Shown: positions 3,324-54,956 of the stretch, one piece after another
Numbering within the stretch: position 1 is the first letter of the stretch
How the letters are laid out: the number at the start of each line of letters is the position of its first letter
Source of the DNA: Mya arenaria
Lineage: Eukaryota > Mollusca > Bivalvia > Myida > Myidae
Length of the DNA: 64,000 bases
Direction of reading: 5' to 3'
NCBI RefSeq assembly: GCF_026914265.1
Contig: NC_069135.1
Location: 5,287,001 to 5,351,000, forward strand
Notes under the pieces: model-generated
What the model was told of the DNA's origin: nothing
The model's input: the letters and a program-made list of their open reading frames with translations, nothing else
Databases searched by the model: none
Translations under genes and position numbers: made by a program

Positions 3324-6300
3324 CTATTCTGTGTCTGGTGTAGACGTTTTGTCTGACACAAGGATTACTTCCCCTTTCACCATAAAGCCTGTTTTGCTTT
3401 CCTCCAGCTCGACGGAGGGCCATACAACCATATGGACCGACCCTTCAGGGTGTTTAGAGCTGGTGACATTCTCCTCAGTTGCTATGGCAACAAATCTGTT
3501 TTCAAGATTCTCGTATTTCTGTCCTACAACGTTAAAGTTGAGACACAGCGATGGCTTTGATATGACCATTAACCAGCAGCATTCAGAAACATCTTCAATG
3601 AATTTTGTGAGCATGTGTTTTGTGTTCGCTGACATCTTTTCACATGTTGTAATACGTTTCGATGCTTGTCCATCTAATACGGCATCCGTAATCGTCTATA
3701 ACGAATGAAAACATGTTTCATCAAATGATTATGCTCTGCACACAAATCCATAACATAATATAAAGAAGTGGTATTCATATATTTGTTGGCCAATTTTCGG
3801 CAACAACATTAAGCAAACCCGCAGGATTTATAGAAATTTCAATAATACAATATCTCGTACAATGTTTAATGTTGTGGACACAGTTGATAAATATACTACT
3901 ACAATGTTCAACTGCCAAATATTTCAAGATGATACAACGCTAAGAGAACTATCTTACCTGCTTCACAGTAGCTAACACCGACTCCTTCTGACCATAAATG
4001 CGTCTACACTTCAGGATGGCAGCAAATTCCTGTTGAATATAATGAATCAGGTTATATATTAGCCTTCATATTCCAAAGCATACATGTAATTGTTTATATT
4101 ATATCGTTGGCTTCTTCTGACAATACACGATTACATAAAACACCGAAGGTTATCGAGGACTACGGATTTCCAACTAGTTGAAGATCAGGCAATGTAGTTT
4201 TGTATTAATATAAAATATGTTAAGCTCCAAGTACATTCATTGCAAGACTAAAGAAGTCAGCTTTTTATAAATTTGTTATATTTCATTACACTTACATTTG
4301 AAGAAATATCAGTATTTTCTGCACGGTTCGGCAATGACTCTTTTTCTCCAAGAAAGCAAAATTGTCGAATGTGCTGATCAGCTCTGTCTTTGCATCGTTT
4401 ATAGACATCCTGAAATTAGCCATTTTTCAGCATCATTACAAATATTTTACTACATAATAAATGCCGTGTTTGCGTTTGCTTTTGTTTATGCATAATGTTC
4501 AGGCACGGTACCAAATACATGTATATATGTACCTTCATGATTTCAGAAACCATATGCAAACGATGAACCTCGCTAATGGTTTGGTCGTCGTCAACAATCG
4601 CCTCGTTCAAATCCTCCCATAGCTTTTTAATGTCACCGTCGAAGTGTTGGGCTAGTTTTGTGTTGGAGAACTTGTCGTCCAAACGTTCCAACTTGTCACT
4701 TCCTTCCAGTACACATGCCATCTTCCTAGTAAGTATCTCGGACCTGAAATGTATCCATGTTTATCGTACTACCGATGTTTATTGTATTTGCATCAATGAG
4801 CGCCAGTCCTAGCAATGTTGTATTAGAACAGAACAGAACAAAACATATTTGATTGCACGTGAACTTTTCAGATTGTGTGTGTTAGATGAATATATCAATT
4901 AATATCATTACAACTGTCACATGCAGTGTGCGACTTATATTATTGGCATATAAAGGATGAACTTAAAATAGTACTACTGCAAATTGAAAATCATCGAAGT
5001 AATTTAGAACAATAACTTGATTTGATTGTAGTATACCAACATTTGACTTACTAAAATAACACATATAGTATTCAATATCCAGACATGATGGTAAACCATG
5101 ACTATGATAGTCTTAATGCTAACGTTACAAACCACTTATTACGATACATTACCTAATATTGTTGCCTTTAATATATTCATCAATAAAGTATATCACATCT
5201 TAAATGTTTTCGATACATACAGTATTTATCTGACATAAATGCTTCCGGTTCAGATGAGATAATGTTGTTTGATTCTAAAATTATATGATACAATAGTTGT
5301 ATAAATAATTAAAACACAATAAACATTCAAGTGATTTAAATGTGGTCCAATGCTTTTGGTATTCATGTACAGAACTTAAAACAAACGTTACTGAAAACAT
5401 ACGCCTCTTTAAGCTTCTCATTCTTCACATCTAGGTGTTCTATAGTGTCAAGGTATGTCTTGCATGCTGCGTTCAGCTCATGTGTTGTTTTCTCATGGGC
5501 TCGTAGTTCTTCCTGAAATAATTGCGTCATAAGGAGTCATACAATCATGGTATAACATGAAAGCTTAAGACATTACAAAGATAATAACAAAGATACATTT
5601 AATAATAGCAAACCTATAACATTGACATTTTAAACACTTTATGATATTGTATAAAAGGTTGTTTCCTTGTCATGTATTGGCATTGCCTGTTCTTAGTCAT
5701 ACCATTAGTATGCATGGTTTGCTGCCAGACTTTTCAATGAAGTGACATTATATCGATACTACCTGCTTGTCCGAACGTAATAAGTACTAATAACGTTTTA
5801 ATACTTGTTTACAACATACTTAAGGTTTACATGTAGGTAAACGTTGTGAATAACTTTTTAAACTCGAAGGTATTTATTTGAACGATAAATTCTTAATAAG
5901 CACTTGTAAACAAAGACTTTAAAGCTGCACTCTCAAAGATTGAACGTTTTGACGACTTTTTTTTCTATTTTTAGTTTTTGAACGAGCCAATTTTTGCGAA
6001 AATGCATTGAAACCAGTTATATATCTTTTTTTTATTTTGTGTCTTGGATAAAGCCTTCTTTTGCGAAAATATCTGCAAACCAATGATAAAAGATTGTTGA
6101 CAAATAATAGATCGCAGATATTTGTATTTAAGTTCAAAAATTGATATTTTATGCATTTTTCTTAAACCGTTAGTAACGGTTTTAGCCATAAAACAGCCGT
6201 TTTCGAACGGAAAATTAAAATCTCCGATCTGATCTTTTCACAGCAATCTTTTATCATTGGTTTGAAAATATTTACGCAGAAATGGCTTTATCCAAGACAA

Positions 6301-7188
6301 AAAAATAAAAAAAAGTAGTTGTAAGAACGAATTGTCAATATGTGAGAGTGCAGCTTTTATAGAGAAAACAACAAAATCGCGACTTCGTGCGGTCTTTGTA
6401 TTGGACATAATTTTCTTTTAACTGTTCTTATACTACCTTCGATTAGACCATGTTTTGGTGCACGCTTATCGTATACAGACAACTTCTAACCTTTTTCGCA
6501 CTTTCAACAAACGTTTTACTCAAACAAACATACAAGCATATTATCTTACGTATTACCTTATAGTCTTTGCACTTTTGGCACGAACTTTCACGTGTCCTGT
6601 AAGAATAAAGCACTGATCAGTAACGACACTGCTAGTATGACTAAGCTACCCGACATTTATCAAAAGTATGACGTTAGATGGGCGCATTCGGGGATAAATT
6701 TAGTGCGTGTCCCGTCCCTGACGAAGGCAATTTTGATATACTTGAGTGTAACATCGTTTCAAGGGTGCCATGTACAGAAATATTTAGTGGTGTGAGTTCA
6801 TTTCAGCTTTTATGTCCTTCAAGGTCAAAATTTAATTAACGTTTTTAATGTAATGATATTTAAAATTTTCTTCTACAGAAATAATTCTTTCAAATGATAC
6901 CAAAAATGAGGGTTCAGGATGCACGAAAGTTTACATTAAAGATGCACTGTTACTCCCAAATAAGATTTACCATATTTAATACCATAATTCAAGTGTTTTA
7001 ATTTACGAAAAAGGATTAAAAATGTCGAAAACAATTGTTCTTAATGAGGATACTGTGTTTAATTTGAAAGAAAGGTGCAGAAAACACGGTATTTCTACCT
7101 TATGAAACAATAGTAGATCTGAGGCCAAATAAAAAAATAGGTGTGTTTCAGGTAATACTGCCAAAATAAATAGGGAAGGTAGGTCGGA

Positions 7189-7220
<32 letters not shown>

Positions 7221-15894: not shown

Positions 15895-18800
15895 TTAAGA
15901 TTTCGTCACAACCACTTCCCCTTTCTTCCAAATATTGGCAAAATCCTGCAATTCAACTGATGGCCATGCAACGCATTTCACTGTTCCAACAGGCTGAACC
16001 TCATCTTCAACTTCATCTTGGGTAGCATACTCTACATAACGGTCTTTGATGTCATCATAGGGTCTGCCCACAGCATCAAATCTCAGCACCATTCGAGGGG
16101 TTGCCACTGTCATGAGCCAACAATATAAGGCGAACTTCTCGACGAATTCCTGTAACGACGTGGTAGCTTCGCATGAGGTGTCTCTGACCAACTCCTGATA
16201 ATCTTCTGTTTGTTGAAGGGAGGACCTTATTTCCTGTTAATACAAAAAGCTGAAGCATACGGGAATGGTCAGAATAACAGGTTGAATACCGAATGAACTA
16301 TAACGTTTACACAATGATAATGTCATTCAGAATAAGATAAAGTACACGTACCAGTTTGATTTTGTTTGTAACTGTCTCATTATGTGCAATGTTCTTCCTT
16401 GTCGAATAAACGCCAAGGTTCTACGAAGCAAAAATAAACCATTTGAATAAGAAAACGCATTCGGAGCTCCTCGGCCTTTTTTTCTCGAAAACAACCTCGG
16501 ATGTATTTGGACAGTTTACATACGCAAACATTGGTCCGTTTAAGTCCGCTGCAAGTAGATCACGTAGGTATTTTATTTAGAATTTAAACTTTATGACTTA
16601 ACTCTTAGGACTCTTAATTATGTTTGCAATAATACACTGCACTGGCAATCAATTCAAACTAAGATCAATAAATACATCTCAAAAACACTACAATTGATTA
16701 ATGATATAATTCAAACATTTACGAACTACTTCAACTGATGTACCGGCATACATCCGAGGTTGTTTTCGATAAAAATGGCCGAGGAGCTCCGAATGAAAGA
16801 AAATGCGACACTGTTCACAGTGGTAATACAAAGGAGGTATTTGATTAGTGGCATGCCTCCAGAGTACACAACACCTGTTCCGATAACTTTGTTTAAGTTA
16901 TTATAACTACTAACCTTGTAAGATTATTGTGTATTAACTTTTCAAATAAAGATGAAAAATAAATGCACTTCAAACAACCCAAACAGATCCGTTACAGCCA
17001 AAGTTGCGAGGTACGTAAAACTTATACGTACATTCTTCAAAAAGGGAAGATCATCACCAGGGTCAAGGAAGAGGAACTCTCTAATATGGTTATCGGCCTT
17101 GTCATAACACATCCCATGAATACTCTGAAGAAATGAGATTTTCAAATATGTCCGTGTTTATATCTCAAAATATGTGTTTCAATAATACAAAATTGATACT
17201 GATGTTAAATTTCATAATTAAACAAAGCAAGCTTGTATTTTGCAAAACAAAAGCTATGTATAAATTGAAATTCGGACATTCTTTCGTATTTAAAAAACAC
17301 ACGACTGGTTTACCTGCATCATGTTTGAAAGTTTTCTGAGCACTTCTACTTCAGAGTGATCACCCTTTTCATCCACGATATTCTCACATAGATCTATCCA
17401 AAGGTTGTTTCTAATGTTGTTGTCAAATTCATTAGCCAGTTTTGTGTTGGCAAAGGGATCATTCAAGCATTCTAGATCTCCACTGTTGGCGGACACTTCG
17501 GCCATTTTGCTCGTCAGGTAGTCAGAACTATGGAATGATCATAAAACGTTTCATTTCAATCTACAGCTGTTCATCAAAGGCCACGATACTTCTGTGTAAG
17601 CACATATATGCTATTTAATAGTCCATGTTAGTAATGTTTTACGTTTGGGTGTATTATAATAATAGTACAAGCTATGAGCTTATTTTTAAAATTCATTTGT
17701 TGTCAAAATCCATTTAAAGGGACATATGGTCCCGAATTCGGAAAAATATGTATTTACGCACAACAATCTTAAAATTGTAAGAATCTGGCTATAAAACATT
17801 TACATGATTAAAAGCATATTCGCGACAAGAATGTTGTCAAACACCTTGCAGGTCACGTGATCTTCTCACACACTAACTTGTCATAAACGATTTGGCCAAT
17901 ACTCATTTTAAGCGGTGTTATCATTGCCGATATTAATCTGTCGGGCTCTTTGCACTGTCCGGCTTTTTTGATAGCCATGTTTTGTGTAGATTTCTTTAGT
18001 ATGTTAAAGAAACGTGGTGAAATTCAATGACTGTATCGACGTTATAAGTGCAAATTTAAACTAACTGGGTATATTTACCAACTAAATTTGAATTTGAAAA
18101 ATACGCAACAACCGCGAGGGCTAAATGTGTCGAAAGCGACGTGGTACACCAGTTTGTAATATATAATGAGTTGTACACAACGATTTATCTTTTATGCAAG
18201 TTTTTGACATGTTCTGTTTATTTTGCAATTATATCATCTGGTGCCTAGTCCAAGGTAATTGTATATTACCTCTCCTATTCAAACAATTGATATGGCTATC
18301 TAGATTCTTCACGAATTATAATATTTCAATAAACTAAAATACGTGTGCCATAATAATAATTATATACTTACTGTTTCTGTAAAGCAATGTAGTGTTCATA
18401 CAAGCTATCGTATTTTGATTGTAGCGATACCAACTGTCTCTCCGTTGTCTCATCAAGTTGGTCATATCTTTCCTGCAAAATCTGAAGTTGGTCATGATTT
18501 TCTCGTGGATGTCCTTCTTCTAGACGATCCTGTCGATGAAACACAAAATTAAAAGAATTCTCTCTTTTTATGTTACTTATTCTATTTTAAGGTAGTCACA
18601 TGAACGAAATACTACAGGGTGTTTCACAGAACATGATCTAACTAGATCTTATATAGAAACTCGATAGTCTGACAAATTGTTAAACGCTATAACATTATAC
18701 AATAATACTGTTTAGTTGCAGTGGGTACAAATTTCACGTTCTAAATTCTCCAGACCGCATCATATCAAAATGCAATGCAAGTTAACAATTGGTAACAATA

Positions 18801-21800
18801 GCCCTATTGACTGAAATTGACATTAAAGGGGTTGTACTAGGAAATTTTGAGTACTGATTCAACCCAGGAAAAAATGTTTTCCGTGTATGGGTGATTTACA
18901 TAGACCTTATGCAGGAATCAAGTATTTCTTAAAAAAAGGCTAGGGTATCACACAGGAAACTCCGTGTATCTCGTTTGGTGTCTTCACTTCTGATAATATC
19001 TAGACGTAAGTCATAATTGTATCCACTTGTTTCTGTCCATCAGTTTCTGATATCATTTATGGCATTAAAACACCGCTTTAAGTCGTAATTTCGTCGCTGC
19101 GGTTGGACCCATATTGCAGATAATTGGATGCGGGCAGACCTTCATCTTCACTCTTAGAAACAAAAACATGGCAGAAAGGTGCCTTTTGCATTTTTGAAAC
19201 AAACGTTCATTAAGCCAAATAATATGTTATAAAAGTAAACACGTAATGTGAATTTCTTGTTTAAATACTCAGTTCCTAGAAATTGTATAGCACTGCACAC
19301 ACTTTTAAACATCGTCTTTGGTACCTGTGTACGTTTAAGTCTCGCTCGCATAGTCTTCAAAAAGTACCTACTTGTAAGTCAATGCATCTTCCACATATGT
19401 CCCTCTGATCTAGTCCTAGTGTTCCAATCCATCTGAGTCATATAGAAATACTGGAATGATACTACTCCACTCCACTTCTTAAGCGCAAAGTGCTTGCAAT
19501 AAAACAACCAAAACAAGACTGATCGCAATGATATAGTGGCATAAAGATGTTATGTGTGAATATGTTTTTTTATCTTGCAGCCACGACTTACAAATTACTT
19601 CAAACATCTTAAATAATACGAAGTCGAGGGAATCATTTTACTTCTCTAAGAAGGCAAACACAAATATGCTGACCTAAATTCCTTAACACATCTATTATTT
19701 GCAGATGTTTGTGTTTAATCATATTAGTAGACGTCCAAATATTTTTTTCTAAGCATCATCTGGCTTAACAAATCATTGAAATATCTTGTTGCAAAATCAA
19801 ACCATGAAACACTAAACGTCTTTATATATATATGATACAGTCATGTATTTACCTGAACGCACATTGAATGGATCGGAAACAACTAGGGAACACGTGGAAG
19901 ATGCTACTGAAAGGAAAACATCCCTCTCTTTTCACTGGTAATATCGATCTTTTAACAAGGGCCATCCGATCCTCGTTTTCACTCGAACTGAAAGCAGCAA
20001 AAGCATTTTAAAAACTGAAATGGTTAGGAATATAAGGTTGTACTTCTCGGGCTGGAATGAAATTACATTTCGTTTATTGACATATTTCCGAAATATGATG
20101 TACAAATCGAGTAAAGTGCAGGCAATAAGGTGTGACATAGGTCTCGGATGTGTTTTTTTCTAAAAAATGATGACATTTTTTTGTGCGTGTGTTTACTTTG
20201 TGCATATTTTTATAAGGTTTCAAATTTATCTATTTGCGGAATTATGGCTGCATTATAAACATATTTATGCGAAAAGCTGCAGAAACAAACACAGCAGCAA
20301 AAAAGTTTAAACATAAACCCGGTTTAATGACACTGGATAAACGCCAAAGACATGGAACATAAAAACAAAAAATCACTACCAAGAAACATGGAAGAACCGC
20401 ACAAAACTCCACAAACAGCACAGTGCATTCATACTATATATAAACAAGAGGGCCATGATGGCCCTGTATCGCTCACCTGTAGCTTTGCTAAATAAAGTGA
20501 ACATTCTGACCTATTATCATAAAGATCCAATGAAAAGTATGGCCCCTACTAATTGACCTAGTGACCTAGTTTTTGACCCGGGTTGACCCAATATCGAACC
20601 TGACCTAGCATATGTTAAGATGATCATTCTGTCCAAGTTTCATTAAGATTAGGCTAAATTGTGATCTCTATTGTGTTCACAAGGTTTTTTTACTAATTGA
20701 CCTAGTGACCTAGTTATTGACCGCGGATGGACCAATGTCGAACTTGACCTAGATTTTATAGAAATGATCATTCTGACCAAGTTACATTAAGATTAGGCTA
20801 AAATTGTGACCTCTATTGTGTTCATAAGGTTTTTCTAATATCTGACCTAGTGACCTAGTTATTGACTGCGGATGACCCAATATCGAACATGACCCAGATT
20901 TTATAGAGATGATCATTCTGACCAAGTTGCATTAACATTAGGCTAAAATTGTGACCTCTATTGTGTTCACAAGGTTTTTCTACTAATTGACCTATTGACC
21001 TAGTTATTGACGGTAAATGACCCAATATCGAACTTGACCTAGATTTTATAGAGATGATCATTCTGACCAAGTTACATTTAGATTAGGCTTAAGTTGTGAC
21101 CTCTATTGTGTTCACAAGGTTTTTATACTAATTGACCTAGTGACCTAGTTATTGACCGCGAATGACCCAATATCGAACTTGACCTATATTTTTCTAGAGA
21201 TGATCATTCTGACCAAGTTGAATTGAGTTAAGCCTAAAATTGTGACCTCTATTGTGTTCACAAGGTTTTTCTACTAATTGACCTAGTGACCTAGTTTTTG
21301 ACCTGGGTTGACCCAATATGGAACTTGACCTAGCTTATGTTAAGATGATCATTCTGACCAAGTTTCATTAAGATAAGGCTAAAATTGTGACCTCTATTTT
21401 GTTCACAAGGTTTTTCTAATAATTGACCTAGTGACCTAGTTATTGACTGCGTATGACCCAATATCGAACTTGACCCAGATTTTATAGAGATGATCATTCT
21501 GACCAAGTTGCATTAAGATTAGCCTAAAATTGTGACCTCTATCGTGTTCAAAAGGTTTTTGTACTAATTGACCTAGTGACCTAGTTATTGACCGCAGATG
21601 ACCCAATATCGAACTTGACCTAGATTTTATAGAGATGATCATTCTGACCAAGTTGCATTGAGATTAGGCTAAAATTGTGACCTCTTTTGTGTTCACAAGG
21701 TTTTTGTACTAATTGACCTAGTGACCTAGTTATTGACCGTGAATGACCCAATATCAAACTTGACCTACATTTTATAGCGATGATCATTCTGACCAAGTTG

Positions 21801-24800: not shown

Positions 24801-26416
24801 ACTTGACCTAGATTTTATAGAGATGACCATTCTGACCAAGTTGCATTGAGATTAGGCTAAAATTGTGACCTCTATTGTGTTCACAAGGTTTTTCTACTAA
24901 TTGACCTAGTGACCTAGTTTTTGACCCCAGATGACCCAATATCGAACTTGACCTAGATTTTATAGAGATGATCAGTCTGACCAAGTTTCATAAAGATTAG
25001 GTCAAAATTGTGACCTCTATTGTGTTCACAAGCAATTGTGAACGGACGGACGGACGGACGGACGGACGGACGGACGGACGGACGACGGACGAAGAGTGAT
25101 CACAAAAGCTCACCTTGTCACTACGTGACAGGTGAGCTAAAAACCTGGGTATTGTTATTAAGGATTGTTAGGTGCCGCATGTCTTAACCTATCGTTCTGT
25201 GTCGTCTTGCGTTCCTAAACAATGATAGAACATTAAGACAAAAGTGCAACCTTCTTTTGCCAAATAATGCATTACAAAAACCTAATTGGTGTCCAACAGA
25301 CACTTGATTTCTTTATTGCTACCTTATTAAAGTAAAAAGCTTTAAATTACATTAAAAAGAGGGTATCATTCCTATGAAAAATATCTTCACTTGAAAAGCA
25401 AATTTTCCAAAAATTCCACAGGCCTCCTTGACACTTCTACCAAAATGACTTTTTAGCTTTAGCACAGTAGTAACAAGTCAAGAAATAATAGATATTTAAG
25501 GTATAAAAGCTTCAGGGCTGATGACATTTTTAATTTGCATTGTATTGAGCATGTGAAACATGGCTATCACACACACAGCCTTCATTATTGAGATTATCTC
25601 ACAAACTGGGATGGGTAGAGGGTGGAGGGCACTACGGACCATTGTGCCCCCGCTCGATCATCCTCGGCACCCAGCGTATCATAACCTATATGAGGTGGGC
25701 CTCATGCTACCAATCAACCGGCTGGATTTCACCTTATTAATTATTCATGACTTTCATGAGTACGAGATTTTTACAGCTGTTTTGCACAGGGTATCATATA
25801 GGTTATGATACGCTGAGGTGCCGAGGATATCATATAGGTTATGATACGCTGGGGTGCCGAGGATATCATATAGGTTATGATACGCTGAGATGCCGAGGAT
25901 ATCATATAGGTTATGATACGCTGAGGTGCCGAGGATATCATATAGGTTATGATACGCTGAGGTGCCGAGGATATCATATAGGTTATGATACGCTGAGGTG
26001 CCGAGGATATCATATAGGTTATGATACGCTGGTGTGCCGAGGATATCATATAGGTTATGATACGCTGAGGTGCTGAGGATATCATATAGGTTATGATACG
26101 CTGGGGTGCCGAGGATATCATATAGCTTATAATTAGCTGGGTTGCTGAGGATATCATATTGGTTATGATACGCTGGGGTGTTGAGGATATCATATAGGTT
26201 ATGATACGCTGGGGTGCCGAGGATATCATATAGGTTATGATACGCCGGAGTGCCGAGGATATCAGATGCCGCTCGATGCGCTACTGGAACGGATGCTCAA
26301 GGATATGTTTCATAGCACTGGCGAAATTTCTCATTTTTTTGCAATTCCACCATATTATGATCATGATAATATATACATGTATAACTATACCTCAACCCAT
26401 CAGTCACATGAGCCAT
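15895..26416 (-). CDS. Gene B: basic leader, CxxC, coiled coil, Mieap-like C-terminus
   Basis: Eight coding exons, in transcript order 26416-26391, 19987-19853, 19432-19372, 18529-18372, 17527-17314, 17124-17032, 16420-16352 and 16233-15895, total 1095 bp and give 364 residues. Intron phases are 2,2,0,2,0,0,0 and all borders are GT-AG. Exon 1 is short (MAHVTDGL) and is supported by the matching exon of gene D. Exon 2 adds a Lys/Arg- and Phe-rich leader starting near MALVKRSILPVKREG. A single CxxC (C67, C70) follows, then a coiled-coil exon lengthened by a repeated HDQLQ/YDQLD heptad, a core with LNDPFANTKLANEFD, and a C-terminal exon with YCWLMTV, VAWPSVEL and KGEVVV. The last exon suggests the Mieap/SPATA18 C-terminal domain. 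The leader could be a mitochondrial presequence, but this is inference. Intron 1 (about 6.4 kb) contains the pearl-like satellite element and the 36-bp minisatellite. Gene D is its closest paralog. Confidence 0.75.
20443..25141. mobile_element. Pearl-like element with an expanded satellite core
   Basis: The left end carries the palindrome AGGGCCATGATGGCCCT and GCTCACCTGT. The right end has an (ACGG)n microsatellite (25042-25090) and the perfect hairpin AGCTCACCT...AGGTGAGCT (25107-25138). A repeat core, tetranucleotide microsatellite and 3' hairpin are the hallmarks of bivalve pearl elements, regarded as non-autonomous Helitron-like elements. The core consists of about 31 tandem units of about 144 bp, each with GACCTAGTGACCTAG, ACCCAATATCGAACTTGACC and GATGATCATTCTGACCAAG. 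The core length is far above the few units usual for such elements. It lies in intron 1 of gene B. Periodic 71-residue minus-strand open frames are shadows of the repeat. Confidence 0.85.
25671..26265. repeat. 36-bp minisatellite with one inverted founder-like unit
   Basis: From about 25790 to 26265 a 36-bp unit (ATATCATATAGGTTATGATA then CGCTGAGGTGCCGAGG) repeats about 13 times with few changes. A single unit in the opposite orientation (CCTCGGCACCCAGCGTATCA...) lies at 25671-25702, about 90 bp before the array. Since 36 is a multiple of three and neither strand has stops, long open frames appear on both strands; they are artefacts. It lies in intron 1 of gene B. Confidence 0.95.
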
Positions 26417-26457
26417 ATCCAAGATTGTTTTACACGTAATCTTCCTTCCGGTCGTTC
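26391..26457 (-). promoter_or_regulatory. First visible exon of gene B (5' UTR and start codon)
   Basis: An acceptor-like TTTCTATCTACAG precedes an exon starting GAACG on the minus strand at 26457. The exon includes the start ATG at 26416 and ends at donor AG|GTATAG. The corresponding stretch of gene D (54987-54928) has the same acceptor and GAACG start. The preserved acceptor implies a further, unidentified 5' UTR exon to the right. Confidence 0.5.
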
Positions 26458-33806: not shown

Positions 33807-36800
33807 TTAATTCGGATTTTTCTCTGACACAACGATTACTTCCCCTTTCAGCAAATAGCCCGTTTGTCTTTCCTTCAGCTCGACGGAGGGCCAAACAACC
33901 ATATGGACCGACCCTTCAGGGTGGTCAGAACTGGTGATATTGTCCTCAGTTGCTATGGCAACAAATCTGTTTTCAAGATTCTTGTATTTCTGTCCTACAA
34001 CTTCAAAGTTAAGACACAGCGATGGCTTTGAAATCGCTATCAACCAGCAGCATTCGGCAAGTTCTTCAATAAATTTTGTTAACAATGTTTTTGATTTCTC
34101 TGAACTTTTTTTATTCAATGTTCTTGATGATAGTGCGTCCAAAACTTCACTAGTTATGTCCTGTAAATAGAATACCATTATTTGTTGTATATAAACAAAT
34201 GAAAACATAAACATATTCATGTACTAATACTCATCATGGCATTCATGTCATCGCTGTTTCATCACTTTACTCATTTCTGATTTTTTTTATACAATAATAT
34301 TCAAATTCTCAGTCTGAATCGTTACATTAACATATCATTAATGATATTTTTAAAGTAATAGTAAGATGACATGAAGTAAATTCTAAATGAAGAACAATGG
34401 GTGGAGTGAGCGTAGCGAACGAGTCCTTCTTAATCATTAAGAAACTACTTCAGGTAATGTTAATGATAAAGAATATAACTTCATTGGCTGATACATTGAT
34501 AACGCAAAATCTGAAGCAGGGTGTGTGTTTCGGATGAGTGGCAGTAGGCGGACCTTTAAACACACGCGAAAGGTGAAATTCTTAATGAATAAGTCTAATA
34601 CTTACATGACTGCAATTTGATTGGCTTAAAATGTAGGTTGTTTTCTAATTTAAGTATAAGGCCTTTTTTAATAAATTGGTTAACGGATTTTTTGACATTT
34701 TTTTTTTTTAAATTGAAAAAAGTAAATCGTTTCTGTGCACATGAAATGATGTAAAACCTGTTGCCTGTTTCTTTGCACTATAGGGATCGGTTTTAAAAAT
34801 TGTTTTCAAAATGGCGGCCTCAATGAGCTGGGATCATACAAACGTACATTCTTATTTTTAACATACCATCTGCATCTAAACGATTTTTTGGTAATAACTG
34901 ACATCAAGGCTGATGTCTGTATCAATGGTAACAAATCACATATAAACCAGAGTTATTGTTAAAATATATTGTCCTGTGTTTGTCCCAGGGGGCATTTATT
35001 ATTAAAATAATTATATGGAGACCACTCCTCAAGTAATCAAAACTTGGGTAACTTAAATTTCGTTAAAGCTACAGAGAAATATCTTAACTTCAAAGAATGC
35101 ATTGCTGAATATAAAATCATTTTTATTATTTAAATTCCTTTATTCCATTTAAAAAATAATTGCATGAGTCAGTGAAATTTGCTACAATGTGCTTATTCTG
35201 TTGAGAAAAAGTAGTGCCCAGCATAAGGAGACACATGCATATTCATTGTAAGGATATGTGGAAATAGGGCTGCAAATAGGAAAACTCTTGCAGTCAGGAT
35301 GTGCTTCAAAAAACATCAGCAAAAAGTGACACTAAAACTGAAAGTTTGTAATAATATTGACTTTAAATGTGACATTATTTTTAGGTGGAAGTGTATAAAA
35401 TGCTTATATAATGATTACATAAATTCAAATTTGAAATTGGCAGGTGAGAACATTGGACTGCAAAGCCAATTATATGTGTAAGACAAAGTTAGCATTTGAA
35501 CATATCAATATTCATTATAATATTGAGGCATTGCAGACATTCTGCTGCATAGAAATCAAAACAAACTTAAGCATTTCAAATGTCATTCATAAATTCATAT
35601 TAATCTATGAACATGTCTTTCCTGTTTGTTGTTATTTTGATCTTTTGGTTCTGGGTTTCGCCACAAACGCTATGAAAAATGCATGTGTTGTAAACAAAAT
35701 TGTATTGATATGAAATCCTTTTTTTTATTTCGCTCCACCCATCATTTTCAAAAAAATACGTTAACCAATTAATAAAAAAATGGCCTAAGTTACCTTTCTC
35801 ACATCAGCTAACGTCGACTCCTTTTGGCCATTTATGCGTCTCCACTTCAAGATTATAGCATACTCCTGTCGATAACAATTCATTTTTCAGATAAACGTGG
35901 GATCAAAATGCTCCGTAATCAACAGCTTAAGAAATGCATCTTAATATTCACGTATGTCACAAAACTAACCGTATTATCAATGCAAATGGCAACACGTTTA
36001 CCTTCATCTGTATGCATTTTAAAAAACTATTCTTGATCAAACAAATGGTTTCAAATACACTCAAGACACTTACGCTATTCTCCATCAGATCAGGCAGTTG
36101 TTCGGATTTTTCAAGAAAACAAAATTGTCTGATGTGTCGATCTGCCCTGGCTTTGCATCTTTCATAAACATCCTACAACACGTTATAACCTATAACTTGA
36201 ATTCAATTAGAATTACACATATTGTGCTCGGTATTGTTACAGAAAATGTAATTAAATATAGACGTTAATGACATGTGAACCTGCAGTTTATCAACCATAT
36301 AATAATCATATGTTTATTTAATGCAAAAATGGTAAAATCACTAAAATGTTATTCTAATTTTCCTAAGTATTTCAGGTATAACAAAATCGGATATTGAGGA
36401 TCAGTGTGACCTTTGACGTCACGACCACTGGATACCGATATACAAAGAAAGAATACCTTCATTATATCGGAAACCGTTTGTAAACGATGAATTTCACTAA
36501 TGTCTTGATCGTCATCAACAATCGCCTCGTTCAAATCCTCCCATAACTTTTTGATGTCTGAATCAAATCGACCAGAAAGTTTACTGTTCGCAAATTCATC
36601 GTCCAAACGTTCTAACTTTTCGCTGTTTTCCAAAACGTTTGCCATTTTCCTAGTAAGTTTTTCGGAGCTGAAATCATACGAATAATTTTATTAAAATCTG
36701 ACGTTCCTAAACTAAATCATCACGGTTATTTTACGACTATACGATTATATAGTAAAATAAATAAATTTAAATTGTATATGGATAGATAAGAAAGATACAA

Positions 36801-39800
36801 AGACAAATGTTCCGTCGGCAGCTTGATTATAACACATTCCTCTGGTTGTGTTGTGATGGACGCCAAATCGGAGCCACAGGTTTATCTACCAGCATATTGC
36901 AAACAAAATTTAAAACAAAGCTTCAAACTTTTATTTAACTGACAAGAAACGTTCAAGAATAGTAACTTTTACTATAATTATATTGATTTTTCTGTGAATA
37001 TACACAAATATTGCTTGGCTGGAGAACGACTTTAATGTCGTGGCATTACAATGATGATACATGACATGTTAATCTGCTCAATAAATTTCGTTTATAATCG
37101 TATTGTTCCGACAAACAAATATCATTTTAAGCTATATCACGCTTCCAACATGAATTGTGGAACACCATAAGTCCAGCAGTGGCCACGCGGTGACCCCATA
37201 TATTTCCAAATCGGGTCACTAATCTCTAAATCGTTCTAAAAAGACGTCTATTGTCCGATTCAATCGTGAATAAATGAAGCATTTCCCAGGTTGTGCTGGC
37301 TTCTTGATAAATGTAAACAGGTTGTCGACGTGATATATACGTTACGGGGTTAGTAGATGACCCTAAATGGGATGAACGGCGGCGCTGGAAACCACATTTT
37401 TGGGTTATTGCTTTTACACAAGTATTGTGAAAATGGTTTGTAATTGGTGTTTAAACACTTTCAGACATCTGCATTTTTGAGCCTAGTGTCAGACTTGACA
37501 CCATTCCATACTGATCACTGGGTGCATCTTTAAACATACGCAGCATCGTTTGCCTATATTTCCATTGAACTTGGATTTGTTGATTAGAGTCTCGAATTTC
37601 AAACTCAGATTCAAAATGCTATGAATATGGGCCAAGCTTATACACATAACGTCTTGTTTGATGCAAACTTTTAAAATGTTGCACGTTTAATGATATTTAT
37701 TTTGCTTATTAAAAGACCAAACATATCAACTGGAAACATACGCCATCTGTACGGTGTGGTTGTGTTCATTCAGCTCATTTATTTCTTCAGCGAATTTATG
37801 TTTTTCATCGACCATATTCCTCATTTGAATCTCACGGACCTTTAGTTCTTCCTGCAATAACGTGACCACAGCAATAAGTCACACAATCATCACAATAAAC
37901 AATTAGTGTTGCCCTAAGGCTACTGGTTGCGGATGTGTTTTCACATTTATCTTTATTCTAATTTTGTCCAAAAGTGGAGAAAATGTGTTTACACGTTATG
38001 TAGAGTAGACCACTATGAAGGTCACAGTATGCTGCTAGATATTCAAAATAAAATAATTTCATAAAATATATTTATCATGACATTTCATTCATCATATTTT
38101 GAGTCATATTGGAATTTTGACAAAAAACACCAACACAACACACGTTAAGTACTACAATAGAACTAGAACTGTTAAAGTATATCTTACCAAATATGTTTTG
38201 CACTTGGGACAATCTTTTTCGCTGGTCCTAAAAAAGATAAAATAACAACACGTTTTTACATCAGTGTTAAACCCGCTCTCATTACCCCGGTTTTGGCTAC
38301 GATTGCCCACGGGTTATATTTCGAGGTACTACTTGACATGCCGTGAATACATATGTATCTCGTAATCATGAATTCATGAGTCACGGGTGATCCTGTTGAA
38401 TCGTGAAGCACCACAACATTTGTGAAGTGTTCAAAACTGTCACGGTGCAGCTTTTGGTTTTTTAAACCTTAACTCAATCGGGTACGTTCGTACCACCATC
38501 GTTTAGGTTGTTCGTGGGTAATTGTGGATGAGAAACGCTACTCTATGACAATTAAATACGACTAGTCAAGACGGGCCTCCGCACTAGTTGAGACTTGTTA
38601 CGAATACTTATACCTGTAGAACTACGAATACATCACGATTATCTACGTTGGTTACACGACTATCATCGAAGCAATTCTTCGTGCACTAGCTCATTGTTAA
38701 AACATAACAGAAAAATCAGCTTTGGTTTTCTGTTTCACTCCGAAGTACTAGCAGCTAGGCAACATCATTGTCATTTTACGCAATGACTCGGGGGCATGCC
38801 CTGCAGTCGGCTATGTGACTATAATTAACCGTAATCCGAACTAGACTGTGATCGTAACGTAAAGTGGAAAAGTCGTTAGGAATCTGCTAAATTCCGCCAC
38901 AATAGTCGTACGTAATTGTTGATGTTCGTATTCCCGTCGTAGAGAAAACGTCGTGTTTCGTTAGGAGGTGACCTCGGGTCCCATGGCAACCGACTCAACT
39001 ATTTCCACGGCTACCTCCAAGCCGGATGTATTGTAGCCAGCACCGGAATAGTTAGAGTCAGGCTTTAAGATGCAACTAACATAGGTTAATATATGGATGT
39101 TCGTGTTATTTTTAAGTTATTTGGTTCCAGTTATCGTAAGAAATAATATTCATTATAAAAGTAAGTTATTTCGTATCAGCTTAGCATAAAGAATGTTTAA
39201 ACATACGGTTACACGTTAACTTTTCTCATGATTTGTGATAAGTTGGTTGTATGGTCGTTGCTTAAACGCGTTCAACACATACCGTCCTCTTTCATCGTAA
39301 GTCGAAGCGGGTGCGCCGTCATGTCCATCGCTTTTTTCTGCTGGAAAAAAATTGACGTCAAAGAATAAATCTGAATTCATACTAAGTCTGATCCAGACAG
39401 TAAGCACGATACAATGTCAGCAAGCAATATTAAATATTTACGTAAGTAGCACTTCCGCACTTATATTGTATTAACACTTAAAATTATCCACGAATGTGAA
39501 CTTAACTATTCATTTTTTTCCATTATATTATATAGATACACCATACGATCTTTTTGCGGTATCAAATTCCGCTTATCACACTTGATAATTATCTTATCAC
39601 AGTTGCCACAGTCCACATTAAACTACTGCTATGTTGTGTGCGAAGATGTCGTTATATAGACTTTGACATAAGTACAAATGATGGACTAGCGATACTAAAA
39701 CTAAGCTGATATGACCTTATAAAAGGAAATTCTTATACAGAATAAAGCACTTAAATGCCTTGTGTTAATGGCAAGGGCCATAACCTATTCATGTATGTCT

Positions 39801-41738: not shown

Positions 41739-41863
41739 AACACTATTACTTAATAGCTATTAAAAAGCCTGAAATAAAGATTGGTTAAGGAGTATTCCTA
41801 CTTTCGATTTAAACTAAAATGCGCAGTATGTACATGACGCTCGATTCCTATCCTGATAAAAGC

Positions 41864-46639: not shown

Positions 46640-49600
46640 TCAGTCCTTGACAATATTTTCTTTAGTGACAACAATCACCTCCCCTTTCTTCCAATAAGTG
46701 GAATCAGTTTCCAATTCAACTGATGGCCAGGCAACACATTTCACTGTTCCCATAGGCTGAACTTCATCTTCGACCTCCTCTTGGGTAGCATACTGTACAA
46801 AACGGTCTCTTATATCAGCATAAGGTTTGCCTACAACATCAAACCTCAGGACCATTCGAGGGGTTGCTACTGTCATAAGCCAACAATAGGTGGCGACTTT
46901 CTCGACGAATTCTTGTAACGAATTGGAAGCATCGTCTGATATGTCCCTTGCTAACTCCTGATAGTCGTCTGTTTGTTGTAGGGATAACCAAATTTTCTGT
47001 AAAGACAAACTTGTAATGGAGCATACGGGTGTTGTCAGAATAACAGAATGGCTACCCAATAAACTACAAAGCATCATTCAACATTGATAAAGATATGATA
47101 ATAAGTATCTTTCATGGCCTAGAGTTTTAATTAAGTTCATCCGAACCTGGGCGTATGGTGTTTTGTGGAAACGGGGTTTACCGAGCGGCAATGGTAGATG
47201 CTTTTTCATCAACCTCAGTTAAAAAAAATATAGTAAAAAGTAATTTTTCGCTGGAACTATTTTGATTCATAATATGTAAATAGTCAAATCGCTCAGTAGG
47301 AAGTTATGAGGGGAGTGCAGCATTATTTCTTAATTGCAGCATGACAACTTTTTTATGCCAAACGATTTATTTGAATTTCAATTTTTGCCACAAGACAATG
47401 TTTTCACGCTGCTACAGAATACGGTCTTCTTCAACAATCGAGGTAATTGTGTGGTGACAATAAAAAGTAGTTCCATCCGGGTAGTTTTTTATCTTTGCCC
47501 TTAGGCAATTTCAAGCATGGCCAAATAGTTGAATATACATGTACTTATCATGGATGGAAGAAGAGGATATCCAGCATGGCCAAATATTTTGTCTACTTAT
47601 CATGGGTGGTACATAAAGATAGATATACAGGTGCTGATAAACAGTTAGAAAGAACTACACGTACCTGTGTTACCCTGTTTATAACTGTCTCATTCTGCGC
47701 CATGTTCTTCCGCGAAGAGTAGGCCTCAATGTTCTTTTAAGAAAAATAAACTTTAAAAACAAGAAAAAATTGTATCTTTTACAACGGCCTTGAAGAAAGG
47801 TGAAAACACCGAAACATGTCTTGGATGAATTAATTGAGTCTATATTTCACAATTCTTCTGAATATTTTTATCAATTAATCAGTTATTATACTAACTGGAC
47901 TTTTACTTTTATTGTAATAAATTGTAACGTCGTCTGTGAAAATAAGTCAAGTTAAGGTTTTCACGTTAACAACAAAAGTGACAAAACAATTTTTAAGATA
48001 GAGATATGATTATTAAACAAACTTCCAACAATGTCTAAAATTTTAATTAAATAACCTTTTCAAAAACATATAAATTCACCTATTATTGCCTGCTTGTTAG
48101 GCACGAACCTCAGGGGGCAGAAACAAATTATGTTCTTATATGTATATATAAAGAGAGAAAATATATATACTTATAGGCTTAAATAAACAAAAACAATTTG
48201 TTTCTGGCCTCTGTGGCACGAACCAATGCAGAAGTGCGAACGACCATGTTTTCTCCGCAATGCTCATTTTCGCTGACTTTGTCACTCACTAGTTTTTACA
48301 GCACGAAGATGAGAAAATAAATGGGACTCAAAACTGCAGTAGCTTACCACTTACAGCAAACATTAAGAGGAAGGAAAACACATACGTACATCTTTCAATA
48401 AGGGAAGATCATCACCAGGGTCAAGGAGGAGGAATTCTCTCAAACTGTTATCGGCTATTTTATAACACATCTCATGAATACTCTAAAGAAATGAAAATTT
48501 TAAATATATTTCTAAAAAATGTGTTTTATTAACACAAACAAATGTCTTATTTCAGAAATTTTATTAAAAATTGATAATAGTCAAAATGTTTTTTTTAATT
48601 ACTGTATGGTAGTGGCAAATAAAACAACAAAACAATGTACGAGTTTCGGATATTTTGTCATATTATGATAAAAAATGGCTATCTATACCTGTATGATGGT
48701 TGAAAGTTTTTTGAGCATTTCTACTTCAGAAAGGTTTTCACACACGATATTCTCACATAGATCTATCCAAAGGCTGCTTTTAATGTTGTTGTCAAATTCA
48801 TTAGCCAATTTTGTGTTGGCAAAGGGATCATTTAAGCATTCTAGATCTCCACTGTTGGCGGACACTTCGGCCATTTTGCTCGTCAGGTAGTCAGAACTAT
48901 GGAACGACATAATCGTGAAAGGATACATTGTAATATATTCATACAATAATTTCGTTCAACAAAAGCCTCGATAGTACATGCTTCTATGTTAACACATATA
49001 TATGTTTATTGTCCATGCGAGATATGTTTCACATCCAAGTGCATTATAATACAGGTTATGATTTTGTTTCTATATTGCTTTAGTTATCAAACTTCATTCA
49101 TCCAGGTAAACTTAAACATCGATTGGGTGTCAGAAAAATTAATCGAATATTTTACTTATTTCGAGTTTTTCGTCGTTAGGCCAAAACAAATTAATGTTAA
49201 GTATATGATGCTCATGTATTAAAAACGAGGAGAAAGCGAGGATTGTATTTTACCTTACTAATTTTAAACATTATTTCTCCCCCGAAAGTGTCAATTATTT
49301 CTATATAACATTATCATATAAAGATATTAGAAACATAGAAAAAATGTTTTCAACTTTGTTAAAATATGATAATAAATAAACTAAGTTAAAACACAATACG
49401 AATGTCTTGAATACATTTGTCTTCGATTGTAGGATATTTCAAACAGTCTCACAAAAGTATTTCAAAAATATTTTTTTATTAAGAAGTAAACAAAGGTGGC
49501 ATGTTCTGAATATACTTAATCATTGTTTTGAGACATCCTTTTAAAATCACATGCGGCGGTGCCTGAGAAAAATATTTGAATTTAGCCTATCCTATGCAAA

Positions 49601-52600
49601 TATGCAATTAATACGATTTTTCTAGAAAAGGTAGTCAGAATCATACTTGAATGAACTGAAAATCAATATGCCATAATATGTACTTACTATTTCTGCAAAG
49701 CATCGAAGCGTTCATCCAACGTCTCATACTTGAATATTAACGATTCCAACTGTGTCGTAGTCGTGTCTAGTTCTCCGTTTTTCCAATCAAGCTGTCTCTA
49801 AACATTAAGTAACAATTTATCTCAGTTTTACTTTGATGTACTTCTTATTTTGTTGGAAGTCACAGCTACGAAAAATAACAACGTGTTTTAGAAATCGTGA
49901 TGAACGTGATTCTGTTTCTCTGCAGACACTTGCAACTCATGTCATGCATGACATACACTATAATACAAGTCGTGATGACGTCACTGCGGACAGAGCATTA
50001 ATACAGCCAATGGGCGCGGGCAGACCTTAATACACTCTAAGAAACAAAACCATGGCAATAAGGCGGGAGGTGGAGGCCCTAAAAGTCAACTAAGCAAACA
50101 TACATGTAACATAAACATATATGTAATTAGTGTCCCTATCCATAATGTGCTGTCTTTCTGGTTTGAATATACATCATCAGTATGGCGTTGAACATATTTT
50201 AACCCCCCTATTTGGTACCTGTGTTGAATTCACGCTCGAATGGACTTCAAATAAGACTTACTTCTAAATTCATGCAGCGTTCGCATTTTTTCTGCTCAAT
50301 TCCAAGTGTTCCCATCCATCTGTAACATAACGGAAATGCAAGAACTATACTCCTTTCTTATTTCGTTTTATAGCGCAAAGTAATTAAAGCAATAAAGTGT
50401 GATCGGAATCAAACGGTGGCATAGAGTCGAATGTGTGAATCATCTCTTAGCAACCACAAACAAACTTTTTCCCATGACTTAATGGACGGTGACCACACGA
50501 TAACATTTATCATACATGACACTCTACGCCACTTCAAATAGCACCCAGAATGCATCAAAGAGGGTGTTAATTTGCACCGCGGTAACTACTCTAAGAAGGG
50601 ACATCAAAATATGCTGACCCTAACGTTTGAAGTCATCTCCGTAACTTGTATTGTTTACGGATACATGCAAATAAAATGACTTTATATGTTGTTTTTTTCA
50701 GCATCTGGCTTAACAAATCGTTCATAAATCGTGATAGAGATCGTCCTATGATACGCAAAGGCCAATTGTTGTGAGTCAGCTCGATCGCCTGGCAAAGAAA
50801 TGAAACAGCATCGTCAAATACCCCCGATTCACTACCGCGCTATGCTTCGTGGAATATTTGTCTAGGAAACTGTCGTAATCTTAAATAATTTAAAAGGCAG
50901 TTTCATTGGCTCCGAAAGGTACCAATAATTATGCACACACTAGCGGATCCGGGGGGGGGGGGGGACCCGGCCCCCAATCCTTTTCCTAAAAAACGTCCAA
51001 GTTTACCTTTTATGTCAATATAGGAGAGAAACATAATAAACATGCTAAAATTAAACCATTTTGGGCTAGAAAAGGTTAAAATTACCTTCGGGGAGTACAC
51101 CGACATCTAAACATTTTAAATTTCGGTTCTGAGGGAGGGGCGGGTGTCAAAAAGTTGTGTCGCTTAGTTAAGTGCCATCTTACTTATTTTTTGGATCCAC
51201 CACTGGCACAGACACTTACACTAATGTTTTCCCGTAGAAATAGTATTCTGGCGAAAGCTAGAATATATTTCGATCCGCCTTATGCAACAGTCAATTGTAC
51301 ATTGTACCCCCCCCCCCCCCCTCCCCCCAGGTCCGGTGGTATACGGGGCTAGCCGGGGAAATGGGCCGTGTTTATACCTTCCAGTTGGTCCCGCTATGCC
51401 GGGTGAATGCGGTGGTTTTGTCTTCGCGCCAAAAATATCAGGGAATGGACCTTACCTAGGGTCCCTTTGGTGCGGGGGCATTTGGTGGGGATTTTATCAG
51501 CAGTTCGGGAATTTTTTTACCCGGGCTTGGCTGGACCGGAAGTCAAAGTCCCCGCTATTCATTATCACTACAAAATTTAAACAGCCAGTTAGACCACTCA
51601 CCTATGACGACAACTATCAATACTGGGTTATTGAGGAGTAATCAATTGTAACATGCGTTTTCTTTGGAAGACGAGTTGTCTATCCTGCCTCATGCATATA
51701 AATAAATTCATTAAAACGAGATTTTGTCAATCATTTTTTCCAATGTGAGTATGAATTGGCTCGGAATAAAGTACCCCGGTTGTCGACGATGGGCAAGTAT
51801 CGTTTCACTCAATTTGACAAGGTTGTGACAAAATCAAACCTTGTAACACTCAACGTACAATGTGGTCATATAAACTTAAAAATATAGTGCGTTTCATTTT
51901 TCATTTAACTTTGTTTTAAAAATGTGTGATGTTTAATCATTTGAGGATACAAATATGTTTACCTGAACGCATATTGAAGGGGTCGAAAAAAATAACAGAA
52001 CACGTGGAAGGCGGTTCTGACTATCGAACATCCCCATTTTCTCACTTGCAACATCGGTCTTCTGACAAGATCCATCCAACCCACCTTTTCATTCACACTG
52101 AAAATGTGGAAAGTATTCTAAAAACTGAGATAATAACCAGTTAAGATGTAGATAACTTCTGATATGTTGAGATATCCGATATTTTTTTCTGAACAGTCCA
52201 ATTTAGCTCTTTTCAGTCGAAAAAAACAAACATAATGTAACCCGGTGCTAATTTGCCGTTTTTACTATTTCCTTGATATAATATTATGTTGTAAAATTAG
52301 CGTTTTCACGCACGGAGATTTTCGTGAGATGTTCTCACTTCAAACATTACTGTTGGGTCATCTTGCAGTGCTCCAGCCAGGATTTGAAAAGGGCAGGGTG
52401 GAGTTTTGAAAAGGACAAGCTACATGAGTCATGTAGGGGTGATTGGGGGTGGTTGTGGGAGGAGTCCACCCCTGTCAGAAGGTGTTTTTTTTGGGGGAGG
52501 GGAGGTCTCGCCCTAGAATTTGTTTTGTTTTTATACTCAATTTAAATCATTTTCCATGATTTTCAGACTTGAACAAAATGGGTTTTTTTCTCAAAATTTA

Positions 52601-54956
52601 GAAGGGTGTGTTTTAATATCAAAATTAAAATTTGTCTTATTGTCTGTGGTATAGTGTGATTGTACTTGACTGGAGTCTTCTTTAGTGCAATGTCACATAT
52701 TTCTCCTAAAAATCATGTAAAATGAAGAAAAAAACAAAGACAGTTAAACATTTGAAGCAATCAAATAAATAAATACACAAAAAACAAATATGGAAGGGAC
52801 GAATCTTAATTTGGTACGTTCAGGATTGGGTACGAATGTAACATTCAGCCTGGCTGTTATTTAATTGTCTTTGGTAAAATAATGTTTAATATGCTGATGT
52901 TTTAGAATAAAATGACAATTAAAATCACTGCCCTTTCTTAAAAAGTCACTGATAAAACATATAACATTGATAAAATAACTCCGAAATTCGGTCTGACAAA
53001 ATGGCGGTTTCGGCGAATTTTGACAAGATCGTGGATATGATAGGTAAACACTTCATAAAGCATCAACATATTTTTGTGGGTTACAAAGAAATTTTCATCA
53101 TCAATATTTTACAAATAAACTTTCAAAACATTTACTGAATAAGTGATGTATATGATTGTGTTAGCGCCACTTTTCCTGTGTTTATAAATCGGCAGTGACC
53201 GTCTGCTTCAAATCAACACTGTTTAAAATGGCGAGTCTCGTCTGTACAATACAATAAACAATTATTTAAAAACATTTAATTGTGCTTGACAACATTTTTC
53301 ACCATCCCCTCACATTTTCTATCGCATTTTACGAACTTTCATCATTGAATAAACGAGTTCTCAATGTATATTCTGATTGGCTGGTATTCAATAGCTCCGC
53401 CTCCTGCCGATGTTCCCTATTTGGCTTTTCCTAATTATCGGATTAAAAGATGACCGGTTATGAAAACACAGGTCGTCTGCTCACTACACAAATACACAAT
53501 TAGCTGTCATATGACTTGGACAAGGCACATGGGAAGATGAAAGGGCAGTACGGCATATTTTAAGCAGTCGGCAATGGGGCAGCATGGTGACACCTAGCGA
53601 TAACACTATTATCATAAATATTACGTAATTTGTCTCAATTATGACAGCGGCTGCCGTTTTTAATAATGATTTCAATAGTAAATAGGGCACTAACGAGATA
53701 ATTGGCGCTAATAGAGCATTTGTGAAAAGGGCACTACTCAAAAAAGGGGCAGGGCGGAAAGAAAAGGGGCACGGGCGCTGCGCCATTGAAAAACGGGCTA
53801 GCTGGAGCACTGTCTTGTATTGTACTTTTTAAAGTTAGGAGTTTTAGCATTATGCTATTTGGTATGTATTGGCCCTTTATTGTTTAATTCTGCATTTGGT
53901 GCAATGAGTTGTATTGGATGCTTTGGTTGTATTTTCGGAGCAATTCATGTATTTTCGTGGTTCTGGTTAAATACTAGTTCAAGATAGCAGTGATGTGTCT
54001 GTCTTGTCTTTGTTGCACATTTTGCACATGTTAATAATCTGTTGATTTACAGCTTAACAGTACACTGACACCACGGTTATGGGATGAGATTGGAGACGTT
54101 CCGAGAGATTTATAGGACATTTGGTTCCACATACCTGTAAGTTTTCATTGTGTTTATGTTAGGTCATATCATACTGTTTTAGCATTATACCTTGTTACGG
54201 CCACTAGACGTATTACAACTTCAGTATTATTTGTGTACAAGATATAATGAAGTAACATGTTTATTAGTAAAAGTATAAACATGCAATGTATAATTATAAC
54301 TATTATAACTATGTATTAATTGTTATTCCATTGTCTATTTTCAGTATGTTCAGTTAAATTATAGAACAACACGTCGTGATTGTTATACCAGTATCATGGA
54401 ATACAAATGTGATGAAAGGAACTTGTAGTTGATGTTTTATTCACTTAATCCTTAATCCACCTGGACATTATTTATACCCGAACCCTACGCGTCGACGCTT
54501 AACTTTCTGATTACCGGAAATGTCGGCCTGTTACAATAATAAGCTGGAATGTTATAACATGCCCACGTTCTGTTTACAAACAATCGTCAAATTTTGTTGA
54601 TATGTTATATAGTAGTTCTCTGATGTTTTAACACAAACAAAATTCTCACTGTCCGAGATCTACTCCTAAACTGCTATTAACTAGCATATAAAATATAAAG
54701 TAATTTATTATTATGATTCAAATAATGACGGTGACGACGATGTTATTGTTGATGCTGCTGCTGCCGATAATTTGTAGTTAGTAATAGAAGTGGTATTAGT
54801 AGCAGTAGCAATAGCAGCAGCAACAGCAGCAATATCAGCAGCAGCAGCATCAGCAATAGTAGTAGTAGTAGTAGTAGTGGTAGTGGTAGTGGTAGTGGTA
54901 GTGGTAGTAGTAGTAGTAATTGTATACCTAAACACACCGGAAGTCCTACTGTCCAT
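46640..54956 (-). CDS. Gene D: basic leader, CxxC, coiled coil, Mieap-like C-terminus (paralog of B)
   Basis: Eight coding exons, in transcript order 54956-54928, 52097-51963, 50318-50261, 49797-49688, 48896-48689, 48482-48390, 47733-47674 and 46996-46640, total 1050 bp and give 349 residues. Phases 2,2,0,2,0,0,0 match gene B. Exon 1 encodes MDSRTSGVF. Exon 2 has the same 135-bp length as in B and continues with a basic, aromatic leader (MDLVRRPMLQVRKWG...). A CxxC (C67, C70; KKCERCMNLE) follows, then a coiled-coil exon, a core with LNDPFANTKLANEFD, and a final exon with YCWLMTV, VAWPSVEL and KGEVIVV. The final exon resembles the Mieap/SPATA18 C-terminal domain. The gene stands head to head with the HSPA12-like gene. 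Intron 1 holds a DNA transposon and a triplet microsatellite ending 8 bp from the donor. Confidence 0.76.
48110..48214. mobile_element. 105-bp MITE with a 10-bp flanking direct repeat
   Basis: The ends TCAGGGGGCAGAAACAAATT and, reverse-complemented from the right, ACAGAGGCCAGAAACAAATT form an inverted repeat. Both sides are flanked by GGCACGAACC (48100-48109 and 48215-48224), a probable target-site duplication. The short middle is (AT)-rich. It lies in intron 6 of gene D; gene B has no such insertion there. Confidence 0.7.
49930..50040. repeat. Dispersed repeat with GGGCGCGGGCAGACCTT end
   Basis: The stretch ending TACAGCCAATGGGCGCGGGC AGACCTT recurs inverted at about 59950-59985 and in diverged form at about 19085-19140 in the equivalent intron of gene B. 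The inverted copy adjoins a tRNA-derived SINE, so this may be the tail part of that SINE family. Confidence 0.45.
50938..51208. mobile_element. Small MITE-like unit with G-run
   Basis: Ends CACTAGCGGATCCGGGGG (left) and TTGGATCCACCACTGG (right) are inverted relatives about 270 bp apart. A run of 15 or so G lies just inside the left end. It sits in intron 2 of gene D and is non-coding. Confidence 0.4.
51300..51641 (+). other. GC-rich island with a poly-C tract and a short open frame
   Basis: After a C run (51307-51328, ending CCCCCCAG) the base composition rises sharply against its AT-rich surroundings, and a frame stays open to 51641 (end ...DDNYQYWVIEE). No domain is recognised. It lies antisense inside intron 2 of gene D. 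It may be a captured fragment, an exon of an unknown gene or chance; it is not called as a gene. Confidence 0.3.
52366..53812. mobile_element. hAT-like non-autonomous DNA transposon (CAGTGCTCCAGC ends)
   Basis: The left end is CAGTGCTCCAGCCAGG and the right end reverse-complements to CAGTGCTCCAGCTAGC. TCTTG immediately precedes the left end and follows the right end, a probable (partial) target duplication. CAGTG-type ends suggest the hAT superfamily, although hAT duplications are normally 8 bp. The 1.45 kb interior has no transposase. A 108-residue minus-strand open frame at its right end is a by-product of the GC-rich terminus. It lies in intron 1 of gene D. An older relative lies at about 30655-31020. 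Confidence 0.7.
54780..54919. repeat. Triplet microsatellite beside the first donor of gene D
   Basis: On the plus strand GCA-rich triplets pass into (GTA)n and (GTG GTA)n. The run stops at 54919, 8 bp from the exon 1 donor of gene D at 54928. On the minus strand it reads (TAC/CAC)n and (TGC)n. Open frames of poly-Val, poly-Thr and poly-Leu are artefacts. Confidence 0.95.

Follow-up and report, generated by a model that had tools for sequence, protein, structure and literature searches.

Four related genes, here called A, B, C and D, lie in a tandem row, all on the minus strand, in the window, i.e. the whole 64,000-nucleotide stretch of Mya arenaria DNA that was analysed. Gene A resembles C (188 of 294 aligned residues identical) and B resembles D (202 of 291), and the mixed pairs (A or C with B or D) have 94 to 101 identical residues out of 282 to 290 aligned. 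Judging from the gene order, this suggests a single duplication of a two-gene block. At the DNA level the likeness between B and D extends over part of the introns, and that between A and C covers little more than the exons, plus one repeat that also stands at a third place in the window (6936-7119 with 9734-9898; 40460-40827; 58619-59003) and of which the copy upstream of gene A falls into two parts ~2.6 kb apart, perhaps through a later insertion. Upstream of B and D, positions 26873-27707 and 56770-57569 could be aligned over 863 columns with 74% identity, and may be a promoter region or else flanking DNA shared through the duplication. A tblastn search of the window for further copies gave 66 matches, of which three, with E = 0.20, 0.36 and 0.64, fell outside the modelled exons. 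No bacterial or viral relative was confirmed among 23 viral-contig and 33 genome-contig pattern matches.

The remainder of the window holds several repeats and a few other open reading frames (ORFs). A satellite of ~31 copies of a 145-base unit (90% match) occupies 20546-25032 and would sit in an intron of gene B if that gene starts at 26416. Tandem arrays with units of 25, 36 and 45 bases are found at 120-2797, 25788-26264 and 63280-64000, and the long ORFs inside them look like repeat artefacts. On the minus strand, a tyrosine-recombinase-like ORF at 13630-15087 (Phage_int_SAM_1 above cut-off) adjoins a GDSL-lipase-like ORF (E = 4.8e-4, below cut-off), and the two probably belong to a mobile element. 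The plus-strand ORFs at 59586-62700, which look like an HSPA12-type HSP70 gene, gave no match of that kind in Pfam and PDB searches. The HSP70 family, like the Mieap family considered below, is tabulated as expanded in bivalves in PMC8382680. Over the whole window, neither a tRNA scan nor an Rfam search at gathering thresholds returned anything.

Each of the four genes could be modelled with six exons in identical phases: a CxxC exon, a coil exon, three core exons and a last exon (Table 1). In all four, the CxxC exon takes one base in and passes none out, and the coil exon passes two bases out. With exon borders picked at AG and GT, all 24 modelled exons are open, acceptors (24/24) and donors (20/20) fit, and the last exons end at stop codons. 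The modelled part of each protein comes to 294 to 310 residues, as against 538 for human Mieap. The core motifs LE.L.D.FANTKLA..F and ..LW.DL.E.IV of the original prediction stand as described in the four-gene alignment, and so do the C-terminal motifs CWL, WPSVEL and KGEV.

Table 1. Modelled genes, their exons and the candidate 5' exons, in positions of the window.
Feature	Positions	Strand	Basis or remark
Gene A, modelled part	3324-6596	-	
Gene A CxxC micro-exon (TRESSCQKCKDYK)	6557..6596	-	phase 1 in, 0 out; micro-exon scan
Gene A coil exon	5403..5512	-	exon model; weak heptad support
Gene A core exon 1, probable front of MIEAP domain	4533..4743	-	exon model; alignment to human Mieap
Gene A core exon 2	4296..4409	-	exon model
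Gene A core exon 3	3958..4029	-	exon model
Gene A last exon, MIEAP C-terminal part	3324..3695	-	PF16026 below cut-off
Gene B, modelled part	15895-19432	-	
Gene B doubtful first exon (ATG)	26391..26416	-	in-phase ATG..GT only
Gene B doubtful 5' exon, 135 nt	19853..19987	-	AG/GT borders, one open frame
Gene B CxxC exon	19372..19432	-	exon model; micro-exon scan
Gene B coil exon, exceeding those of the other three genes by 48 nt	18372..18529	-	exon model; heptad score
Gene B core exon 1	17314..17527	-	exon model
Gene B core exon 2	17032..17124	-	MIEAP profile match begins here, at profile position 48
Gene B core exon 3	16352..16420	-	exon model
Gene B last exon, MIEAP C-terminal part	15895..16233	-	PF16026 below cut-off
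Gene C, modelled part	33807-38227	-	
Gene C CxxC micro-exon (TSEKDCPKCKTYL)	38188..38227	-	exon model; micro-exon scan
Gene C coil exon	37742..37851	-	exon model; weak heptad support
Gene C core exon 1	36457..36667	-	exon model
Gene C core exon 2	36074..36172	-	exon model
Gene C core exon 3	35794..35865	-	exon model
Gene C last exon, MIEAP C-terminal part	33807..34160	-	PF16026 above cut-off
Gene D, modelled part	46640-50319	-	
Gene D doubtful first exon (ATG)	54928..54956	-	in-phase ATG..GT only
Gene D doubtful 5' exon, 135 nt	51963..52097	-	AG/GT borders, one open frame
Gene D CxxC exon	50262..50319	-	exon model; micro-exon scan
Gene D coil exon	49688..49797	-	exon model; heptad score
Gene D core exon 1	48689..48896	-	exon model
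Gene D core exon 2	48390..48482	-	exon model
Gene D core exon 3	47665..47733	-	exon model
Gene D last exon, MIEAP C-terminal part	46640..46996	-	PF16026 below cut-off; membership mainly via paralogs

The overall pN/pS ratio is 0.45 in both A/C and B/D, so that the genes look constrained as a whole. Individual exons gave 0.20 (A/C core 1), 1.03 (B/D core 2) and 1.15 (A/C coil). In pS, the A/C last exon has 0.29 vs 0.68 for core 1 (3324-4743, 33807-36667), and in B/D core 1 has 0.10 vs 0.42 for the last exon (15895-17527, 46640-48896); such exon-to-exon variation hints at gene conversion. The highest of these pN/pS ratios, together with the strong differences in pS within one gene pair, are what would be cited for the four genes being decaying pseudogenes, a reading that we consider highly improbable in view of the 24 open exons with usable borders and matching phases and of the low overall ratio in both pairs.

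The CxxC exons were first found through a listing of minus-strand ORFs with a CxxC together with a comparison of paralog ORFs (E = 0.010 for A/C and 5e-8 for B/D). Both cysteines are invariant in the four-gene alignment and are encoded, in every gene, by the eighth and fifth codons from the 3' end of the exon, with four codons between the second cysteine and the donor. A scan for upstream micro-exons of the right phase, which was not blind since its filters were written once the CxxC exons were already known, yielded 36 candidates (A 6, B 12, C 7, D 11). Cysteines at both set places occurred in four of these, a single one in each gene. The CxxC exons were also the top pair in five of six upstream-region comparisons, the exception being C vs B. 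A chance occurrence of the motif was ruled out by its exact place in the exon and by the retention of both cysteines in all four genes.

Conservation of the CxxC among the four paralogs had been predicted and holds for the residues and their place in the exon, but not for the numbering. Positions 67/70 in B and D follow from starts at 26416 and 54956 plus the 135-nt exon, in which the two genes share 18 of 44 residues with a pN/pS of 1.52, i.e. no coding constraint. For A and C, where 37/40 had been given (in C counted from its second ATG), the required 5' exons could not be rebuilt: for a single first exon of the required 92 nt, A offers one weak candidate and C has none, and there are two candidate second exons in each. 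Within the CxxC exon itself, D has two in-frame ATG codons, one of them before the CxxC, and A, B and C have none.

The N-termini bear on one explanation of the motif, namely that the CxxC is half of a larger zinc finger formed within a single chain, the remaining ligands lying in further upstream exons. B and D do share one cysteine in the doubtful 135-nt exon, and the head of gene C has a weak zinc-ribbon match in Pfam (E = 0.022, below cut-off); against this, the 135-nt exon shows no constraint and the search upstream of A and C gave no exon with support, and we rate a single-chain finger as unlikely. In the comparison of the four head pieces to Pfam none was above the cut-off of any family. 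As had been predicted, the head also differs from that of vertebrate Mieap, the human protein not being known to carry a CxxC.

The predicted coiled-coil exon was borne out in part. A home-made heptad score, for which the scored stretches take in the first residues of core exon 1, was compared to 2000 shuffles of each sequence; it was reached by only 2 shuffles for D and 18 for B, clear in both, but by 227 for A and 234 for C, which is not clear. B and D can thus reasonably be said to have a coiled coil, and for A and C the term is tentative. When the four-gene alignment was compared to solved structures, four weak matches were obtained, the best to an autophagy-related protein 16-1 chain (E = 0.036, model positions 8-108), and all were set aside as driven by the coil.

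The C-terminal part points to the identity of the genes. The original prediction had noted a Mieap-like C-terminus, to be checked with the Pfam MIEAP profile on all four translations, and at a loose limit PF16026 does match all four last exons, above its cut-off of 27 bits in C (ORF 33807-34223, E = 1.3e-8, 35.5 bits) but below it in the last-exon ORFs of A (E = 1e-4, 22.8 bits), B (E = 0.0014, 19.1 bits) and D (E = 0.02, 15.4 bits, profile 120-162). Taken singly only C would be assigned, and A, B and D join through their likeness to C. All four joined models match MIEAP at a loose limit of E up to 1, the best with 1.6e-7. For gene A the joined model (E = 0.0011, 19.4 bits, profile 108-193) scores lower than the lone last exon, and the trimmed models gave E = 5e-4 for B, below cut-off, over profile 48-166, and 32.8 bits for C over 88-194. 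No single gene spans the full profile. NCBIfam gave nothing better than E = 0.017.

The core exons can be placed by way of a working version of the human sequence, which scores 255.6 bits over the whole MIEAP profile with the domain at 298-488. Aligned to it, the four-gene profile matches with its last-exon part only (human 415-488, E = 0.0017), and core exon 1 aligns ungapped to residues ~291-315 (E = 0.024), right where the domain begins; the score of a profile of core exons 1 and 2 was reached by none of 200 shuffles of the human segment. The hhalign probabilities are low (15% for the four-gene profile and 2% for core exon 1), so the argument for the core as the front of the domain rests on order and place. 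For profile positions 1-47 the evidence is this weak, ungapped alignment of core exon 1. On the ground of order and place, the LE.L.D.FANTKLA core most likely forms the front part of the MIEAP domain rather than a separate module, and the three core exons together its probable front and middle. AlphaFold predicted three helices for core exon 1 at middling confidence (pLDDT 70, pTM 0.31) and no usable structure for the last exon (pLDDT 41). Each gene ends in a divergent MIEAP domain that follows a short head of CxxC and coil exon.

The same data bear on the proposal that the four proteins form an undescribed family whose C-terminal likeness to Mieap is due to chance or is remote. That C alone passes the Pfam cut-off and that no head piece is above any would agree with it, but every one of the four last exons shows at least some match to MIEAP, the core stands where the front of that domain would be expected and in the expected order, and an expanded bivalve Mieap family has already been published. 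We therefore give very little credence to this proposal and regard the claim of a new family as unsupported; on sequence grounds A-D very probably belong to the Mieap family.

In PMC8382680, the Mieap orthogroup OG24 comprises 807 genes, with an average of 53.1 genes per species in 15 bivalves and of 0.6 in 17 other molluscs, and three Mieap duplications are retained in all bivalves studied. A-D resemble OG24 in the presence of many copies, a comparison of copy number and not of sequence. Elsewhere, Mieap-named proteins are over-represented among the gill-enriched genes of a mussel (PMC5549309) and, on exposure to cadmium, change in abundance in two Dreissena species, with opposite direction in each (PMC11036304); Mieap proteins have been linked to the repair of mitochondrial damage and the removal of oxidised proteins (PMC8382680, PMC11036304). 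The best explanation, which we hold with moderate confidence, is that A-D are tandem, short members of the Mieap (mitochondria-eating protein) family of a bivalve type. That they act in mitochondrial quality control seems slightly favoured.

The likeness to Mieap/SPATA18 covers the C-terminal MIEAP domain, the coil-like part ahead of it and the order of the domain end and its probable start. The differences lie ahead of the domain and behind it. For human Mieap, PMC10845071 places two coiled coils, along with three disordered segments, within 92-311 and a further disordered tail at 499-538; all four disordered segments are positively charged and rich in arginine and serine (R/S). In A-D a single short coil exon runs straight into core exon 1, 5 to 13 residues follow KGEV, and the net charge is -10 to -24. 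No R/S-rich segment was seen in A-D, where R+S reaches at most 0.27 per 30 residues vs 0.60 in a 40-residue segment of the working human sequence, and condensate behaviour may thus differ from that of vertebrate Mieap, which is characterised by mitochondrial condensates that take up cardiolipin. The delta-275 mutant forms condensates in human cells that are found outside the mitochondria, a location for which its authors propose the C-terminal hydrophobic region to be decisive (PMC10845071). As far as can be read from the sequences, the C-terminal domain is conserved between A-D and vertebrate Mieap and the part concerned with assembly differs.

It is this combination, a retained C-terminal domain and a different assembly part, that leads us to put forward, with low confidence, the CxxC as an assembly device. 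In the mechanism that we propose, the coil would pair two chains, and the MIEAP domain, by analogy with what has been suggested for the C-terminal region of human Mieap, would carry the protein to damaged mitochondria by way of cardiolipin-type lipids, the paralog copies possibly serving to repair mitochondria in stressed cells. Standing ahead of the coil, the CxxC might then join the two chains, either through one zinc bound by four thiols or through disulfides, though this is a guess that we hold only tentatively. That the CxxC and short coil have replaced the R/S-rich segments, with metal load or oxidation switching assembly and hence mitochondrial repair, is a bolder and rather improbable extension.

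A known arrangement that bears comparison is the Rad50 zinc hook, in which the CxxC is at the turn between two coil arms. Here too a CxxC stands beside a coil, and two chains could share one zinc. The CxxC of A-D, however, comes before a single short coil, unlike the apex of two arms in Rad50, and the zinc hook profile (PF04423) matched just one of the four heads, below its cut-off (E = 0.019, 15.2 bits vs 24.3). The CxxC is also a common redox motif, and may act as a redox switch, through a disulfide within or between chains, instead of as a metal site. The link of Mieap proteins to mitochondrial damage repair and oxidised protein removal, as stated in PMC8382680 and PMC11036304, speaks for such a switch; no thioredoxin-family match occurs among the listed Pfam matches of the joined proteins and heads, which for so short a motif is weak evidence against it. 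A redox switch without metal appears to us about as doubtful as the single-chain zinc finger.

What was supposed to be a new family is now placed within a known and strongly expanded bivalve stress family, and most of the gene structure is fixed. The conserved CxxC head is the one part of these proteins for which we found no description in the searched literature, a search poor in subscription journals. Should this head turn out to switch in response to metal or redox state, it would offer a clue to the way in which the numerous Mieap copies of bivalves detect stress.
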